A stretch of DNA of 23,674 bases from a virus: IMG/VR virus record IMGVR_UViG_3300025132_000307, positions 1-23,674 of that record; one strand, written 5' to 3'. Under the pieces are notes generated by a model. That model had not been told where the DNA came from. It did no database searches and was given only the letters and a program-made list of their open reading frames with translations. Both the position numbers and the translations under genes were made by a program. Below, piece after piece: positions 3,986-22,371 of the stretch. Positions within the stretch are counted from its first letter, which is position 1, and each line of letters opens with the position of its first letter.

Positions 3986-4472
3986 ACAAGACCCTGCATT
4001 TGACGCACCTATTCCCGGACAGTCTTTAACGGCTGAACCAAAAAATAGACCGTGGAGAAACCCACCTCAACTTGACACCGTTGAAGATGCGATGGAATAC
4101 TATCTTCCACGTTTGTCGTCACGTGAACTTGCACCTCGTTTATTAGATGTTATTGAAAGTGGAATACCTTTAACGTCCCTAGCTGAAACTATTGTAACAG
4201 GTGGTGCTATGCAAGGAGTGCATAGTATTGACGTGGGAATATTAGTAGCTCCAATACTTGTTGAGTACATGAAAGGCATGGCAGAAATTGCCGAGATTGA
4301 ATATAACTTAGGTACAGAAGATAAAGAAGCACAGCCTGACCCACAACTTGTACGAAGAGCAATGGAAGATTTAAAAGAACAAGAGACAAATATAGCACAA
4401 GAACCTATGGAAGATACCGAAGAGCAATCAGAGCAACCAACAGGTCTTATGGCACGTAAGGAGACAGAATAA
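3975..4472 (+). CDS. Conserved marine-phage virion-region protein of unknown function
   Basis: This 165-aa protein opens with FDAPIPGQSLTAEPKNRPWR, an N-terminal signature I associate with proteins of unknown function beside structural genes in marine phages. The middle (about residues 35-110) is predicted helical and moderately hydrophobic, including ETIVTGGAMQGVHSIDVGIL. The C-terminus is acidic and Gln/Glu-rich. It lies between the repeat protein and the large ejection candidates, so a minor virion or scaffold-like role is possible. The start overlaps the previous gene by 11 bp, and the stop overlaps the next ATG (TAATG). Confidence 0.6.
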   Translation: MPFRQDPAFDAPIPGQSLTAEPKNRPWRNPPQLDTVEDAMEYYLPRLSSRELAPRLLDVIESGIPLTSLAETIVTGGAMQGVHSIDVGILVAPILVEYMKGMAEIAEIEYNLGTEDKEAQPDPQLVRRAMEDLKEQETNIAQEPMEDTEEQSEQPTGLMARKETE

Positions 4473-9791: not shown

Positions 9792-10154
9792 TTACCTCTT
9801 GTCTCCACTTCCCCCAAGCACACCACGTTTCTTACGTGACTGTAACTTCTCTAAATTACCTTCCATAATCTTTCCCAAGTCAGAACCTAAATGGTCAGCT
9901 AACATAGCACAGTACCATAGGACATCTCCTATCTCCTCTGCTAGTCCATCCGTAGGTTTATCATCTCGTATAATCTTCTTTACTTTATTTCCTATCTCTC
10001 CTGCTTCACCAACTAATCCTAAAGTAAGATACTCTAATGCTTTGTCTGATGGAAAAATAGCTGTTGTCTTTGCCTGTGCCTGATAGACACTTGCCGTAAT
10101 ATTACTTTTGTTTAAATTAACCATAAACTTTTGTGCTTCTTCTTCTAGATTCAT
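9792..10154 (-). CDS. mazG: MazG-like nucleotide pyrophosphohydrolase
   Basis: This 120-aa protein has the all-alpha NTP pyrophosphohydrolase signature: GLVGEAGEIGNKVKK, with E50 and E53, followed by AEEIGDVLWYCAMLA, with E73, E74 and D77. Together these give the EExxE...ExxD metal-binding set that holds Mg2+ and the triphosphate. Family members hydrolyse (d)NTPs to monophosphates. Phage MazG has been proposed to alter ppGpp or nucleotide pools, though substrates vary. It is the last gene of the - strand block, 2 bp from the opposing + strand gene. Its start overlaps the RMF-like gene by 38 bp. Length fits single-domain phage MazG proteins. Confidence 0.9.
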   Translation of the reverse strand: MNLEEEAQKFMVNLNKSNITASVYQAQAKTTAIFPSDKALEYLTLGLVGEAGEIGNKVKKIIRDDKPTDGLAEEIGDVLWYCAMLADHLGSDLGKIMEGNLEKLQSRKKRGVLGGSGDKR

Positions 10155-10338
10155 ATTGCTTTACCTTTTTTAGTTGGGCAAAATAAGCAGAGTCAAAACC
10201 TCTTTGCCATTCTCTATATTGCATAGTCGTATGACTATACGGACTTTTTAAATGACCCCTTCTAAAGGCTTGAACACCTCTATTAAATTGTATAATTAAA
10301 GGTGCGTCATACTTTCCTAAATTATTTCTTCTTTTCAT
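10117..10338 (-). CDS. RMF-like small basic protein
   Basis: This 73-aa basic protein starts at ATG 10338; a TTG two codons upstream is less likely. AAGG lies 6 nt before the ATG. Residues 20-51 follow the spacing of ribosome modulation factor (E. coli RMF, 55 aa): RG at 20-21, A24, G28, PY at 33-34, W44, G47-F48 and A51, with GVQAFRRGHLKSPY and REWQRGFDSAY as the core. RMF binds the 30S subunit near the anti-Shine-Dalgarno region and drives 100S dimers in stationary phase; CrpP-like proteins share the fold pattern. A role in altering host ribosomes is inference. It overlaps genes on both sides, yet the motif argues it is a genuine gene. Confidence 0.7.
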   Translation of the reverse strand: MKRRNNLGKYDAPLIIQFNRGVQAFRRGHLKSPYSHTTMQYREWQRGFDSAYFAQLKKVKQYESRRRSTKVYG

Positions 10339-10567
10339 TATCAACCTTCTCCTCTTTCTTAATAAAAAACTTTTCTAACATCTCTAACTTGTCATTGTAG
10401 TCAGCTATCTTACCTAGTTCAACTTCAATAACACTTTGTATGTCTTGGTGCTCAGGCTCACCAATACCAACAGGTCTTGACAAGGACACCTCTACATTTG
10501 CTATGTGTTTGTTTATTTGTCCTGTGTAGTACGACCTTGCCGCATTAATCATTAAGTCTCTAATCAT
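10322..10567 (-). CDS. Conserved small phage protein of unknown function
   Basis: This 81-aa protein starts at ATG 10567 behind AAAGGAG. It has an amphipathic N-terminal helix, then a central motif close to VSLSRPVGIGEPEHQDI, then a helix (about 47-70) and a Lys/Glu-rich tail. Short proteins with an N-terminal helix and a PVGxGEHxDI-type centre recur in marine phages, usually without known function. No catalytic residues are evident. Its start overlaps the previous stop (ATGA), and its end overlaps the RMF-like start, so it is co-translated in the same operon. Confidence 0.65.
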   Translation of the reverse strand: MIRDLMINAARSYYTGQINKHIANVEVSLSRPVGIGEPEHQDIQSVIEVELGKIADYNDKLEMLEKFFIKKEEKVDNEKKK

Positions 10568-10986
10568 TTGTTTTCTCCTTTCTTAAATGCTTTGATAACG
10601 TCCGATGAAAATAGTTTCTGTAGATTTAACAGGTACATCTTTGATGCCATGTGGTCTCCACCTGAAACACTTCTCTTGTAATCTAAATTTTCTATAATAC
10701 GTTTTAAGTTTTTTGTTTCAAAGACAATAGTTGCAAACGTATCTTTGCCAATACATAAATTATGAAACCAGTAATCTGACTCCGTGCTATTGATGCCACT
10801 TGGTTTTCCATAAGATTCGTACTCAACTGCAATATTGCCAGTCTTTTGCCATACATCTCTTTCACTTTTCACCTCTATCTTTTTATTTTCAAGCATGTCT
10901 AATATTAATTCTTCTCGTATCTGCCCATATTTTAAGTCAATGTCAAATTTTTTCCTGTCTTCTATGCTTGGTTGTGTTTTTCTCAT
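10564..10986 (-). CDS. Putative PD-(D/E)XK-type nuclease
   Basis: This 140-aa protein has a nuclease-like pattern: a helix with E25/E26 (GQIREELILDMLENK), then a strand ending in E38-V-K40 (KIEVKSERD). TGNIAVEYESYGKPSGI (49-65) follows, with another conserved acid (E55), then STESDYW. This arrangement resembles small phage PD-(D/E)XK proteins sometimes annotated as restriction-endonuclease-like. A role in host DNA breakdown or phage recombination is inferred. AAAGGAG lies before the ATG. It is the first gene after the 81-bp gap downstream of ribonucleotide reductase, so it may have its own promoter there, though none is clear. Confidence 0.55.
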   Translation of the reverse strand: MRKTQPSIEDRKKFDIDLKYGQIREELILDMLENKKIEVKSERDVWQKTGNIAVEYESYGKPSGINSTESDYWFHNLCIGKDTFATIVFETKNLKRIIENLDYKRSVSGGDHMASKMYLLNLQKLFSSDVIKAFKKGENK

Positions 10987-11067: not shown

Positions 11068-13023
11068 CTAAGAAATATCTACTATCTCACAGGCATCACC
11101 AGAACACGCTAGTTCCTTTGTTGACTTTGTTTGGTCTTCTTTTTCATAGTTTGACAGGTTTTCCCATACAATCTTAGGCATGTCCTTGATACTTTCATAA
11201 TCTTCTTTCTCAATCTCCTGATAAGGTGCTTGAACATATGTATGTTCGCTATGTGGTAAGAAACTTATACCTGAAACCTCATCAAAATGACTATACACCC
11301 AAGCTCCAACTTCCATCCATTCATGGTCACGAACTGTGATAGTAATAGACGGTTTGTGTTCACACCAATGTCTTTGATATTTTAACCAAAGTTCTAATTG
11401 GTCTAATGCTGTTGTGTCATTTCGTGTAATAGCTTTCTCTGGACTTTTTATAGGAAAGCTAAACACGGTAACATTATCAGGGTTCATTGCATCAGGTTCA
11501 TTTGGCACTCCTTCATCAACCATTAGCTGTGTTAATGGGTCTTTGTTATCGCCACGTACAGTACGAATATAATACTTGCTATGTCGAGCATGAATACCAC
11601 TTGCACTATCCACCAACTGCGAAACTGTTCCACTAGGTTTAACACATGTAATTGCAGTTGATTGATTAATTCCAAACCTATCTGCCCATTCTTTATTTGT
11701 TTCAATTGCAGTCTCCCTTAATGTATCAAGAATAAATCGTATATCTCCTGCTGAACCATTTGTTATTTGATTGTCCATGATGCCTGTTAAAGATACACCT
11801 AATAGTCTTTCTTCTATTGTATTGTCTTTCCACATCTTACGCAAATATTTAAAGTCTGTTAATGTTGATTGATATGTTCCAAGAATAGTTGCAACTTTTA
11901 CTTTGTCCTGTAAAGTATCTATATTGTCCTCTTCACGGATAACAACTTCTGTAAGATTACAGAATTGATTAGGTCTTAGTATAATCTCAGAGCATGGGTT
12001 CGTACCAAAATCTAAATATGATTGCTCACTATGTGAATACATTACATATGGACTGTTATCATCTGTTACTTTAAATTTCTCATCGTACAATTTACGTCTA
12101 CCATTTTTAGATGCTTGTTTAACGGCAGCTAATCTATTAAAGATACCACGTTCTCCTGATTTACTTTCTACTAAAGCTAACCATTCACGCATAAATGTTT
12201 CCATCTCAGGTTTAAACCTGTAAGCTACACTATTATTAGACAAGGCTCTATGTCCATGTGTCTCCCACCAATTGCCTGACTTAGCATGACGCATTTGGTC
12301 ATCATTTAAATTTGAAAGACTGATGAGGGCAGAACGTCTTACCCCACCAACGACTACTACCTCACCAATCTTACACATTATGTCGTGACATTCAATTGGG
12401 TAGAGTTTTCTACCTGCTGCATTTTTAAATGTCGCAACACAAAACTTATATAAATCTAACAATGGTGCAGGACCTGATGCCCTACCACCAAATGTTTTTA
12501 ACTTAGCTCCTGCAGGTCTTACCAATGATACATCTAATGTTGGTATTTGTCCAACAGATAACATGGCAAGTAACTCACGTAATGCCCTTGCCCAACCTGA
12601 ACGAGAATCAGCAACCTTAATAACAGTATTACTGTTTTCAAAGTGTTCATTAATTACTGGAATTTTATCAACACAATCTCTTTCAACAGAAAAACCTACA
12701 CCTGTACCACACATAAGAATATACATAGCTTCGTCAAAAGCACGTAAGTCATCAACAGCTAAATAAGAACAGTTGTATCCTGCCACATTACATTTGTCTA
12801 AGGCTTTACCTGAAGTCATTAGTGCTCTCATACTTGGCATAACTTTTAATTCTTTAATGTAATGTCCAATACCATCTGTGCCGTCAACAAAAACATTAGG
12901 AAACTTATTGTACATATAGTCACAATATCTATCTACTGTTTCCGTCCATGTCTCTCTTCTGTTTTCTTTATCTAACCATCTTGCATATCGTGATATTGCT
13001 ATAAAATTTTGGTAGTCATTCAT
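11068..13023 (-). CDS. nrdJ: Class II (adenosylcobalamin-dependent) monomeric ribonucleotide reductase
   Basis: This 651-aa enzyme would reduce ribonucleotides to deoxyribonucleotides for phage DNA synthesis. It has the key residues of the Lactobacillus leichmannii monomeric type. C85 in AGYNCSYLAV and C355 in FCNLTEV form the reducible pair. C344 and E346 in TNPCSEI are the thiyl-radical cysteine and general base. KPSGTVSQL (462-470) is the phosphate-binding segment. C640 and C645 near the C-terminus match the shuttling pair. It lacks the class I radical tyrosine subunit and the class III glycyl motif, so B12 would be the radical source. L. leichmannii's enzyme is 739 aa. The start overlaps the preceding 58-aa gene by 8 bp. 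Confidence 0.92.
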   Translation of the reverse strand: MNDYQNFIAISRYARWLDKENRRETWTETVDRYCDYMYNKFPNVFVDGTDGIGHYIKELKVMPSMRALMTSGKALDKCNVAGYNCSYLAVDDLRAFDEAMYILMCGTGVGFSVERDCVDKIPVINEHFENSNTVIKVADSRSGWARALRELLAMLSVGQIPTLDVSLVRPAGAKLKTFGGRASGPAPLLDLYKFCVATFKNAAGRKLYPIECHDIMCKIGEVVVVGGVRRSALISLSNLNDDQMRHAKSGNWWETHGHRALSNNSVAYRFKPEMETFMREWLALVESKSGERGIFNRLAAVKQASKNGRRKLYDEKFKVTDDNSPYVMYSHSEQSYLDFGTNPCSEIILRPNQFCNLTEVVIREEDNIDTLQDKVKVATILGTYQSTLTDFKYLRKMWKDNTIEERLLGVSLTGIMDNQITNGSAGDIRFILDTLRETAIETNKEWADRFGINQSTAITCVKPSGTVSQLVDSASGIHARHSKYYIRTVRGDNKDPLTQLMVDEGVPNEPDAMNPDNVTVFSFPIKSPEKAITRNDTTALDQLELWLKYQRHWCEHKPSITITVRDHEWMEVGAWVYSHFDEVSGISFLPHSEHTYVQAPYQEIEKEDYESIKDMPKIVWENLSNYEKEDQTKSTKELACSGDACEIVDIS

Positions 13024-16245: not shown

Positions 16246-18267
16246 TCAGTTTAAATCATGTGTGTCAAGCCAATTATTACCTATTTTTATATCTAATAAA
16301 AGAGGAACATTGAAGTCAACATTGAACTGTTTTTGTATAATATTAACTAGATTTGCGTTGAGTTTTTTGATTGTGTACACAATGTCATTGACTTCTTCAG
16401 GGTGTACGTCAATCACTATACTATCGTGAACTGTATTTACTATGCACGATTGGTATGTATTTAACATTTCATCTAAATGTAATAAGGTTATTGGTACTAT
16501 ATCTGCCGTAGCAAATGATTGTACAGGGAAATTCTTTATCTGTGTAAAGTATGTTACTGAACCATTAGCTCTTCTCTCTACTCCCGGAAAAGCAAACTGC
16601 CTACCTGATGGTGTAATTATTTTACGAGTAGTTACAGCTTCCTTAGCCAATCTGGAATGCCATAATGCGATTCCTTTGTACTTTTCTGTAAACTGTTTGT
16701 AGTACGCTGCTTCTGCGTGGCTTCTTCCATAGCCTGTTGCTCCGTAGAGAGGAGCAAATGTATGAGACTTCCCTTCTTGACGAGTCGTTGGTTGACCAGC
16801 AGCCGTAATAACTTTTGCTGTATACGAATGAACATCGAAACCATCTTGTATCTCCTTCATTGCTACCTCATCTTGTGATAGATAGGCAGCCGTTCTAAAT
16901 TCTAATTGGGCAAAATCAGCTTCAAGGATTTTACCACCTTCCCAACGTGAAACAAATACTTTCTTTACAGGAAACGTGCCACCACGTGGCATGTTCTGCA
17001 TGTTAGGGTCTGCTCCACTAAACCTGCCTGTGGCAGTTCGGTGCTGTAAAAGTCGGACATGTAACTTGTTGTCGGACTTTACATTCGTCTGTATACCGTC
17101 TATGAATGACGATATATAAGTGTCCAATGCCGATAGTCGTATGACCTTTGAAAGGAAGGTTGCTTCTCTTGTTAAACCCCTGCTCTTGGCAATAGAACAC
17201 AAATAGTTTAGATGGACTTTGCTTGTTGACCAACCATTGGCAGTCAACCACTTTCCATTAGGTGTTTTAAAACGCATACCTGCAACCTTTGACGTTGGTA
17301 TAAACAAGTACCCCTGTCCGTCACAGTTTGTGCAACGTGTTTCTCTTGAGAAAGGTGAACCGTCCTTCTTTGTTTTTCTTATCTTGCCATGACCATAACA
17401 TACTGTACATTGTTGTGCTTTTGTTTTGAAGATAACGTCAGAGTTCCAACGTACCCATAGAACATAGTTCTGTCTCTGCCATGTTAAAGGTATGTTATTT
17501 ACCCAATCGGTTTTGTTCTTAGGTTTTCTACTGTATATTAACCATGACAATTGTTCAGGACTGTTAAGGTTTACAGGTGTGTCACCCATAAAGAACTTGA
17601 CTTCACTTGCAAGGAAGTCTTGTATCTGTTTCTTTTCCTCTACAAACTCAGCACGAACAGACGCAAGAGACTTTAAGTCTACAGAAAATCCACGTTGATA
17701 TATATGGGCAAGACATAGTGCAACTTTATTAGTAAGTGTCACAACGTCAACAAGACTTGCCGATTCCTTTGTCTGTAACTGTGCATATATTTTATCGGAC
17801 AGTTGTTGTGTTGCCTGTAAGTCGGCAATCAGGTACTCTGTTAGTTCATCTTTTGGTATCTCATCAACACCAATACCTTTTTTAAGATATTCCTTCATCG
17901 TGTCCTGCTTCTTCGTGTCTAAGTCATATCGTTCAGCACATGCTTCTAATGACAACGGTTGTTTCTGTCCTCGTTGTAAGATGTACTCACCCAGCATAGT
18001 GTCAAACACAGGACCTGTGTATGTAAATCCACATTCCCACAACCACATTAAGTCATGCACAATATTATGTCCAATCATAATTGTTGCTTGGTCAATGACC
18101 TCTTGCAGTTCCTTGTGTTGGTTTTGTACATCGTCAAATATGTACTGCTTACCTGTGTCCGTTAAGCACCCTACCATAACTAATGAATTACCTGATTCAA
18201 AAGGGTCAAGGTGTACCTTATCGTCTCTCTTTGTAACAGTATTCTCTACGTCAAGAGTTAGTTTCAT
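16246..18267 (-). CDS. polA: Family A DNA polymerase with DnaJ-type zinc finger insertion
   Basis: This 673-aa replicative polymerase has intact 3'-5' exonuclease motifs: D6 and E8 (TLDVENT), N68 and D72 (IGHNIVHDLMWL), and Y145 and D149. The polymerase motifs are present: A with D451 (LEADFAQLEFRT), B with K500, F504 and Y508 (KSHTFAPLYG), and C with H614-D615 (NTVHDSIVID). There is no 5'-3' exonuclease domain. Between the exonuclease and polymerase parts, C287xxC290xGxG and C312xxC315xGxG form a DnaJ-type zinc-binding pair; HMO-2011 polymerase has such a partial DnaJ domain. F504 matches E. coli F762, the residue used to sort viral polymerases. The start overlaps the helicase stop (ATGA). 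Confidence 0.96.
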   Translation of the reverse strand: MKLTLDVENTVTKRDDKVHLDPFESGNSLVMVGCLTDTGKQYIFDDVQNQHKELQEVIDQATIMIGHNIVHDLMWLWECGFTYTGPVFDTMLGEYILQRGQKQPLSLEACAERYDLDTKKQDTMKEYLKKGIGVDEIPKDELTEYLIADLQATQQLSDKIYAQLQTKESASLVDVVTLTNKVALCLAHIYQRGFSVDLKSLASVRAEFVEEKKQIQDFLASEVKFFMGDTPVNLNSPEQLSWLIYSRKPKNKTDWVNNIPLTWQRQNYVLWVRWNSDVIFKTKAQQCTVCYGHGKIRKTKKDGSPFSRETRCTNCDGQGYLFIPTSKVAGMRFKTPNGKWLTANGWSTSKVHLNYLCSIAKSRGLTREATFLSKVIRLSALDTYISSFIDGIQTNVKSDNKLHVRLLQHRTATGRFSGADPNMQNMPRGGTFPVKKVFVSRWEGGKILEADFAQLEFRTAAYLSQDEVAMKEIQDGFDVHSYTAKVITAAGQPTTRQEGKSHTFAPLYGATGYGRSHAEAAYYKQFTEKYKGIALWHSRLAKEAVTTRKIITPSGRQFAFPGVERRANGSVTYFTQIKNFPVQSFATADIVPITLLHLDEMLNTYQSCIVNTVHDSIVIDVHPEEVNDIVYTIKKLNANLVNIIQKQFNVDFNVPLLLDIKIGNNWLDTHDLN

Positions 18268-21036: not shown

Positions 21037-21286
21037 TATCGTACTCCTTTATGTAGTTGAATGTTATGTTTGCGTCAGGGTGTTGAGACTGTATATAGTC
21101 AAGTGCATACATAATTGGGTTGCAACTTCCTATAATGTATCGCCTAAATCTGACAATTACTTTGTGTACATTGTCCACGTTTGCCGACACCTCATACTCA
21201 TAAGAGTCTGAAATCTCAGGCACTTGTTCAGCAGGATACAATGTTATTTTTCCCTCTGTGGGGAAATCTGGATATGATTCTGTCAT
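21020..21286 (-). CDS. Hypothetical protein (88 aa)
   Basis: This frame starts at ATG 21286 behind AAAGGA and overlaps the methyltransferase stop (ATGA). The N-terminal third is acidic and Pro-rich (ESYPDFPTEGKITLYPAEQ). A strand-rich centre (HKVIVRFRRYIIGSC) and a helix follow. I recognise no family. It is the gene directly after the C5 methyltransferase. Confidence 0.55.
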   Translation of the reverse strand: MTESYPDFPTEGKITLYPAEQVPEISDSYEYEVSANVDNVHKVIVRFRRYIIGSCNPIMYALDYIQSQHPDANITFNYIKEYDNVRDY

Positions 21287-22371
21287 TTTATTCCTTTCAT
21301 TATGTGTGTTAGTACATCAACTGTCCAACCATTGCCTAACATTTTATATCGTTGGCTATTGGACACATGATTTGTATAGTTGTCAGGTACAGTTTGCAAT
21401 CGCTCACACTCAAGAGGTGTTAGCTTTCTCCATTGCATACCTTCAACAACTACGTTGTCTTTAGTAAAGGTAGTCAAACAATTTGACTTACCTGTATCAC
21501 TAACCTCTAATTGTTTAGTGAATGGCAGTTCTAGTTGGTTGTCTTTGCGTGTACCATGCTCGTCTAGTCTACGATTAACAATCCTACCTATGGCAACCTT
21601 TGGTTCTCTGTTTCCACCACCCATAGTGTTAAGTGTGGGTGCTTTTCCATTGGGTGAGTATATACGTTTGAGTATATCATGTCCATTAATAGTATCGGCT
21701 TCGCCTACTTGTACCATAGTACGTTGTCTACGTTGGATACTGTTCCACCATACTGCTCCATTGTATCGTGCCGTAATGCAATGGGACTTACCCTCTTTGT
21801 TAGTCATAGCTTCATTCGCTATGCCATCATCTTCTAGTATGTCCTGCAACACTATACCCTTGTCCTCTGTCGGTACATCAAAAGGTATGTTAGTCCAATA
21901 CAATCTCTTTCTATTCTGTGCTGAAAATAAACTACTGTTTATTGTAATAGGTTCAACACCTAGATACTTTGTGATAATGTCCTGCGAATCTTGTTTCATA
22001 GGTACATTCTCCATGAGAAAGTACTTAGGTTTTAACGTATCTTTTAGTCTAACAAACTCAAAGAATAGTTTGCTACGAGGGTCATCAAAGTCTAACTGTT
22101 TACCTGCCACACTAAATCCCTGACAAGGCGAACCACCCATAAGTAAATCTATTTCATTCTCATAAAATGTTGGAGAATACTTAGATTTAGAACTTGACGT
22201 TATAACATCTTGTACATCTCCTAACTGTACTGTGTCAGGGTAATTAGCCTGTGCAACTTTGATAGCATACTTATCTATTTCCGATGCAAAGTAGGTATCA
22301 TACTTTACACCTGCTCTGTTGAGGGCTATCTGTCCACAGGACATGCCGTCAAATAAACTTAATACATTCAT
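21283..22371 (-). CDS. C5-cytosine DNA methyltransferase
   Basis: This 362-aa enzyme would transfer a methyl group from S-adenosylmethionine to C5 of cytosine in a short DNA site. The motifs are in the usual order: I (LSLFDGMSCGQIAL, 4-17), IV with the catalytic C83 (GGSPCQGFSVAG), VI (LMENVP, E121-N122-V123), VIII (QNRKRLYW, 152-159), IX (KLTPLECERLQTVPDNYT) and X (MLGNGWTVDV). The target domain is relatively long (about 165-305) and has repeated GK-type segments (GKSHCITARY, GKAPTLNTMGGGN, GKSNCLTTF). The site cannot be read from the sequence. AAAGGAG precedes the start. It probably protects phage DNA, and a small nuclease gene lies nearby. Confidence 0.95.
   Translation of the reverse strand: MNVLSLFDGMSCGQIALNRAGVKYDTYFASEIDKYAIKVAQANYPDTVQLGDVQDVITSSSKSKYSPTFYENEIDLLMGGSPCQGFSVAGKQLDFDDPRSKLFFEFVRLKDTLKPKYFLMENVPMKQDSQDIITKYLGVEPITINSSLFSAQNRKRLYWTNIPFDVPTEDKGIVLQDILEDDGIANEAMTNKEGKSHCITARYNGAVWWNSIQRRQRTMVQVGEADTINGHDILKRIYSPNGKAPTLNTMGGGNREPKVAIGRIVNRRLDEHGTRKDNQLELPFTKQLEVSDTGKSNCLTTFTKDNVVVEGMQWRKLTPLECERLQTVPDNYTNHVSNSQRYKMLGNGWTVDVLTHIMKGIK

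Follow-up and report, generated by a model that had tools for sequence, protein, structure and literature searches.

The described proteins closest to the one studied here are the ribosome modulation factors (RMF; PF04957; PDB 2jrm, 6h4n chain v and 9iot chain y). In E. coli RMF the core residues G16, G23, P30, W40, G43 and W44 are required, replacement of G16, C29, W40 or W44 by alanine abolishes binding to the ribosome, and dimerisation, which is lost in R45A, needs both G23 and R45, the latter in contact with the anti-Shine-Dalgarno (anti-SD) base C1536 (PMC8126665). A second point of comparison is formed by the Rmf/CrpP family (NF041886) and the non-canonical Rmf-like proteins of Pseudomonadota; the drug-modifying role claimed for CrpP is disputed, to judge by the title of Zubyk and Wright 2021, which PMC9495688 cites. 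On the phage side, genes for HPF (Escherichia phage rv5) and bS21 (pelagiphage HTVC008M) have been published, and the phage bS21 was found in purified ribosomes while the phage HPF was not (PMC6375957). Furthermore, a protein of Caulobacter phage CcrBL9 (A0A385EFF1) is annotated 'Ribosome modulation factor', so that comparable phage genes are already known. A literature search for phage-encoded RMF returned nothing on point, and no paper on the gene described below was found.

The window, that is the whole stretch of DNA analysed, is a 23,674-base virus record. On its minus strand, positions 10117..10338 encode a 73-amino-acid protein with an ATG start, hereafter the RMF-like protein, assigned to the Rmf/CrpP fold from a conserved family, an AlphaFold2 model and RMF as the best PDB match. 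The protein is basic (pI ~10.8, 17 Lys and Arg versus 4 Asp and Glu); a TTG at 10344 is an alternative start, which would give 75 amino acids. The sequence and an SD scan place a strong Shine-Dalgarno-like sequence, GAGGAGAAGG, at 10345..10354 on the same strand, and an SD-like tetramer precedes 21 of the 32 predicted genes of the window versus 12% of background ATGs, in agreement with the strong Shine-Dalgarno sites originally noted for the genes of this phage. The neighbouring genes all lie on the minus strand. The 3' end of the RMF-like gene shares 38 bases with a gene for a MazG-type nucleotide pyrophosphohydrolase (9792..10154; Pfam MazG E=1.4e-9, phrog_229 E=5.1e-35), and its start shares 17 bases with the ORF of an 81-aa protein of no named function (10322..10567; phrog_1811 E=1.3e-21). 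Upstream in the same gene run are a 140-aa protein, also of no named function (10564..10986; phrog_13596 E=4.9e-42), and a class II (adenosylcobalamin-dependent) ribonucleotide reductase, RNR (11068..13023; TIGR02505 E=1.1e-89, under the equivalog cut-off of that model).

The closest nucleotide match of the window is the Roseobacter phage CRP-1, and the DNA polymerases of HMO-2011, CRP-345 and CRP-1 share 60-63% identity with that of the window; by these comparisons the window is related to the HMO-2011-type marine phages. Relatives of the RMF-like protein are encoded by 502 stretches in viral contigs (tblastn, not deduplicated), with a median dN/dS of 0.14 over 29 pairs. The ORF picked out in the original prediction is a real gene, strongly conserved and under purifying selection. 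Among isolates with an HMO-2011-like polymerase, the gene is present in HMO-2011, CRP-1, CRP-345, CRP-3, CRP-212 and CRP-235, and it was not found in the regions examined of CRP-2, CRP-603, CRP-207, CRP-738 and HTVC033P, nor in those of the RNR-bearing phage CRP-13. Since RNR-bearing isolates of the group lack it in the regions examined, the gene is an accessory found in part of the HMO-2011-type group, and its partnership with RNR is not obligate. The records of the reference phages call it 'hypothetical protein' or do not annotate it as a gene. No cellular homologue was found in genome contigs, searched with the patterns TMQYREW and KYDAPLxI only, and none in 289 alphaproteobacterial genomes, a weak search in a set without positive control; from these searches the family would be a phage-restricted lineage of HMO-2011-type marine phages.

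Several observations were made alongside. In the deposited genomes of CRP-212, CRP-3 and CRP-235 the RMF-like ORF sits without annotation in the interval that separates the RNR gene from the gene that follows. A relative is also carried by a contig of 110,914 bases (IMGVR_UViG_3300029448_000003), about twice the length of HMO-2011-type genomes, which may come from another type of phage or result from misassembly. In the window itself, the DNA polymerase (16246-18267, minus strand) bears CxxCxGxG-type repeats resembling the DnaJ-type insertion described for HMO-2011-type phages, and a 362-aa ORF at 21283-22371, also on the minus strand, has the PCQGFS and ENV motifs typical of DNA cytosine methyltransferases, for which it is a candidate by motifs.

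The relationship of the protein to RMF was examined at several levels of sequence comparison. Taken singly, it scores 15.7 bits with PF04957 (E=0.016, or E=4.8e-4 when scored within the 23.7-kb record), under the Pfam gathering cut-off of 27.9 bits, and 11.9 bits with NF041886 (E=0.13), under the NCBIfam cut-off of 28 bits. A narrow profile of gammaproteobacterial RMF matched it at chance level, 242 of 5000 shuffles being as good, whereas with a broad Rmf/CrpP profile, made of gammaproteobacterial RMF and the non-canonical Rmf-like proteins out of 200 Pseudomonadota genomes, the RMF-like ORF headed the 343 ORFs of the window and 0 of 5000 shuffles did as well. Hence the RMF profile match by which the original prediction was to be judged is found within the record and with the broad profile, but stays below both family cut-offs. 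Profiles of the phage family were also compared with hhalign, where significance rests on column-shuffled decoys and not on a database search. Against the broad Rmf/CrpP profile the family profile scored 25.7-34.6, which none of 200 decoys reached; against canonical RMF alone the profile of the window lineage did not clearly pass, as 1-4 of 200 decoys reached its score. Syntenic divergent orthologues (CRP-212, CRP-235, the freshwater phage ctYwJ313 and related contigs), which tblastn (E 3e-7 to 1e-2) and their position after RNR link to the window protein, matched canonical RMF with 91% probability and broad Rmf/CrpP with 96%, in both cases with 0 of 200 decoys, and among the Pfam hits of divergent family members RMF recurrently came first or second. 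A sequence-profile search of the PDB with alignment A1 did not return RMF, so sequence alone does not reach the solved structures, and E. coli RMF searched against phage genomes by tblastn gave chance-level matches only. Matches to cellular RMF or Rmf-like proteins were also seen for four other phage families, phrog_10492, phrog_13106, phrog_17748 and phrog_26995, whose proteins may likewise have the Rmf fold.

The AlphaFold2 model of the window protein, built from phage sequences alone and with no templates, is a two-helix hairpin (residues 14-27 and 39-72; pLDDT 84.6, core above 90) whose second helix extends into a basic tail. In the PDB, Foldseek ranked RMF 2jrm first (E 1.6, probability 0.72), and in VIA-align the first two places went to the RMF of E. 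coli, with 52 residues at 2.6 A and Z 6.3, and to that of Vibrio, with 57 residues at 3.1 A and Z 6.0, the next chain being at Z 4.6; for a helical hairpin such Z values near 6 are modest, and AlphaFold2 may have seen RMF in training or carry a memory of its structures. With a second model, of a family member whose loop is 13 residues longer, three RMF chains were the top three in VIA-align, and RMF itself was not listed by Foldseek. The CcrBL9 protein, likewise from an alphaproteobacterial phage and of RMF-type predicted structure, is among the structural matches, but the match is weak (E 0.76, TM 0.49 by query) and its RMF name is annotation only. The S30AE alpha/beta domain of HPF (PF02482) is absent, the predicted model being all-helical and no Pfam HPF hit being obtained. 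The published phage genes that encode proteins associated with ribosomes or of the hibernation type, HPF and bS21 (the latter from a marine pelagiphage), are comparable to the RMF-like gene in kind, but their folds differ. In a large lineage of the family (L034:2998-3237 and related loci), AlphaFold2 predicts the loop insertion as a beta-hairpin between the two helices.

The RMF fold that the original prediction anticipated is therefore seen as a confident predicted hairpin with RMF on top in both structural searches of the window model. Distant homology to Rmf/CrpP, or at least the same fold, is well supported, though not proven, by predicted structure, by profile-profile comparison with decoys and by linking orthologues. 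We consider it very probable that this small basic two-helix protein belongs to a phage-restricted lineage of the Rmf/CrpP fold in HMO-2011-type marine phages. The identity originally proposed stands as far as fold and distant homology are concerned, but does not extend to a working RMF, as the residues indicate.

Residues G21, A24, G28, P33-Y34, W44, G47-F48 and A51 of the window protein correspond to RMF G16, A19, G23, P30-Y31, W40, G43-W44 and A47, and the N-terminus is basic as in RMF. The original claim that the key RMF positions keep their spacing holds within the helices, where the distances from RG to A, A to G, W to G and G to A are the same, but not between them, the G-to-P stretch being two residues shorter and the P-to-W stretch one longer. 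Over 97 aligned relatives G21, W44 and G47 are invariant and position 48, equivalent to RMF 44, is always aromatic (F/W/Y; F in the window protein); the conservation is looser at the other positions named with them, P33 being kept in 65/97 and the R of 'RG' in 31/97. The equivalent of RMF G23, present in the window protein, is found in 69/97, and all 97 carry a positive net charge. In a 61-member alignment L14, G21, F25, M39, R42, E43, W44, R46 and G47 are invariant, and two family-specific blocks, KYDAPL and TMQYREWxRG, are nearly so. In contrast to RMF, the phage family has I/V/F/M at the equivalent of R11, S/P/N/T at that of C29 (C in 1/97) and N/S/D/T at that of R45. The basic C-terminal helix is also longer, and many relatives have a loop insertion. 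The non-canonical cellular Rmf-like proteins share with the phage family the G-A-G-(N/C)PY-W-G-aromatic skeleton, the mostly missing R45 (D/E in 14/17) and a significant profile match, while the window protein falls below the family cut-off and its lineage has the two blocks of its own. On these residues the phage protein looks closer to the broad Rmf/CrpP family than to canonical RMF, and because it lacks tested features that define RMF we place the gene outside RMF proper, as a new lineage within a known fold. In one relative (L126, ORF near 3989) most of the RMF-like core is duplicated in tandem within a single reading frame of 127 aa.

As for function, we know of little that has been established for non-canonical Rmf/CrpP proteins, and a fold is not proof of function. 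Fold and charge suggest that the RMF-like protein might well be a ribosome- or rRNA-binding modulator that dampens or protects host ribosomes, the leading reading here, to which we give a little less than even credence. The protein would be made from its strong ribosome-binding site within the nucleotide-metabolism gene run, its two helices would pack around the invariant Trp44 and the aromatic at 48, and its basic N- and C-terminal ends would face the 16S rRNA of the 30S subunit, so that host ribosomes would be dampened or protected during infection. Because it has other residues in place of the loop Cys of RMF and of the Arg that contacts the anti-SD, the protein probably forms no canonical 100S dimers and probably docks otherwise than RMF.

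Alternatively, the Rmf/CrpP fold may have been turned to another target, be it a host protein, another RNA, or RNR or MazG, for instance as a small regulator of dNTP supply. We regard this as a possible but less than even prospect, to which the neighbourhood is central. Among distinct relatives with enough upstream sequence, a class II RNR lies upstream in 105/105, the 81-aa protein in 68/105 and the 140-aa protein in 23/105; among those with enough downstream sequence, MazG follows immediately in 78/100. The replacement of the canonical rRNA-contact residues beside nearly invariant blocks of the family's own is consistent with a different partner, as is the presence among the weak structural matches of the window model of Aqs1, a small helical phage protein known as an anti-activator of a host regulator. 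Against this, CRP-2, CRP-603, CRP-207, CRP-13 and CRP-738 have RNR without the gene in the regions examined; hence the gene is not needed for RNR, and the linkage may reflect shared gene order only. A strict functional tie to RNR was rejected on the same five phages. After RNR, glutaredoxin and PhoH fill the slot in CRP-2, CRP-603, CRP-207 and CRP-13; the replacement of the RMF-like gene by these two genes in L325, L326, L327 and L328 suggests a swappable accessory slot.

The position beside MazG, noted originally, is thus confirmed in the window and in most relatives, but the stress-nucleotide module drawn from it is weakened: MazG is located elsewhere in CRP-212, ctYwJ313 and CRP-3 (in CRP-212 and CRP-3 the annotated MazG gene stands before RNR instead), and the alarmone link through MazG is weak because a cyanophage MazG is reported not to hydrolyse (p)ppGpp (PMC9038755).

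That the protein is a true functional RMF, binding the anti-SD pocket and forming 100S particles with host HPF so that ribosomes hibernate during infection, is improbable. The same predicted fold, the similar size and charge and the conserved equivalents of G16, W40, G43 and aromatic 44 would fit it, but the equivalents of C29 and R45, whose alanine exchange in E. coli RMF kills ribosome binding and dimerisation respectively (PMC8126665), are replaced, and the narrow RMF profile does no better on the window protein than on shuffles. Furthermore, no full canonical RMF was found in the 289 alphaproteobacterial genomes sampled, where four of the 289 exceeded the Pfam cut-off, the best at 38.9 bits over part of the model. 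A shut-off of SD-led initiation would also harm the phage's own genes, given that 21 of 32 carry an SD-like tetramer. For this reason, and with R45 missing, the selective effect on host mRNA considered in the original prediction loses ground, as an anti-SD block would hit those phage genes most; neither 100S formation through the RMF anti-SD contact nor a selective sparing of phage mRNA is supported. Least probable of all is a chance resemblance, in which an unrelated helical hairpin shares the G, W and G-aromatic positions with RMF: sub-threshold single-sequence matches, the chance-level narrow profile and modest structural scores would allow it, but it is opposed by the empty decoy sets of the broad family profiles and of the syntenic orthologues against canonical RMF, by two models leading to RMF chains and by the first rank among the window ORFs.

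The HMO-2011-type phages form one of the dominant virus groups of the sea, with slow-growing hosts. Given that the alphaproteobacteria sampled lack canonical RMF, any action of the phage protein would take place in hosts that have no RMF of their own. More tentatively still, and with rather low confidence, we propose that in this abundant group a phage-borne ribosome modulator, an RMF fold without the anti-SD contact, might retune or shelter the 30S subunit during infection of RMF-less alphaproteobacterial hosts. The predicted RMF-fold protein is in any case a concrete and testable candidate for direct phage action on host ribosomes, and with it the RMF fold, known mainly from gammaproteobacterial hibernation, would now extend to phages of alphaproteobacteria.
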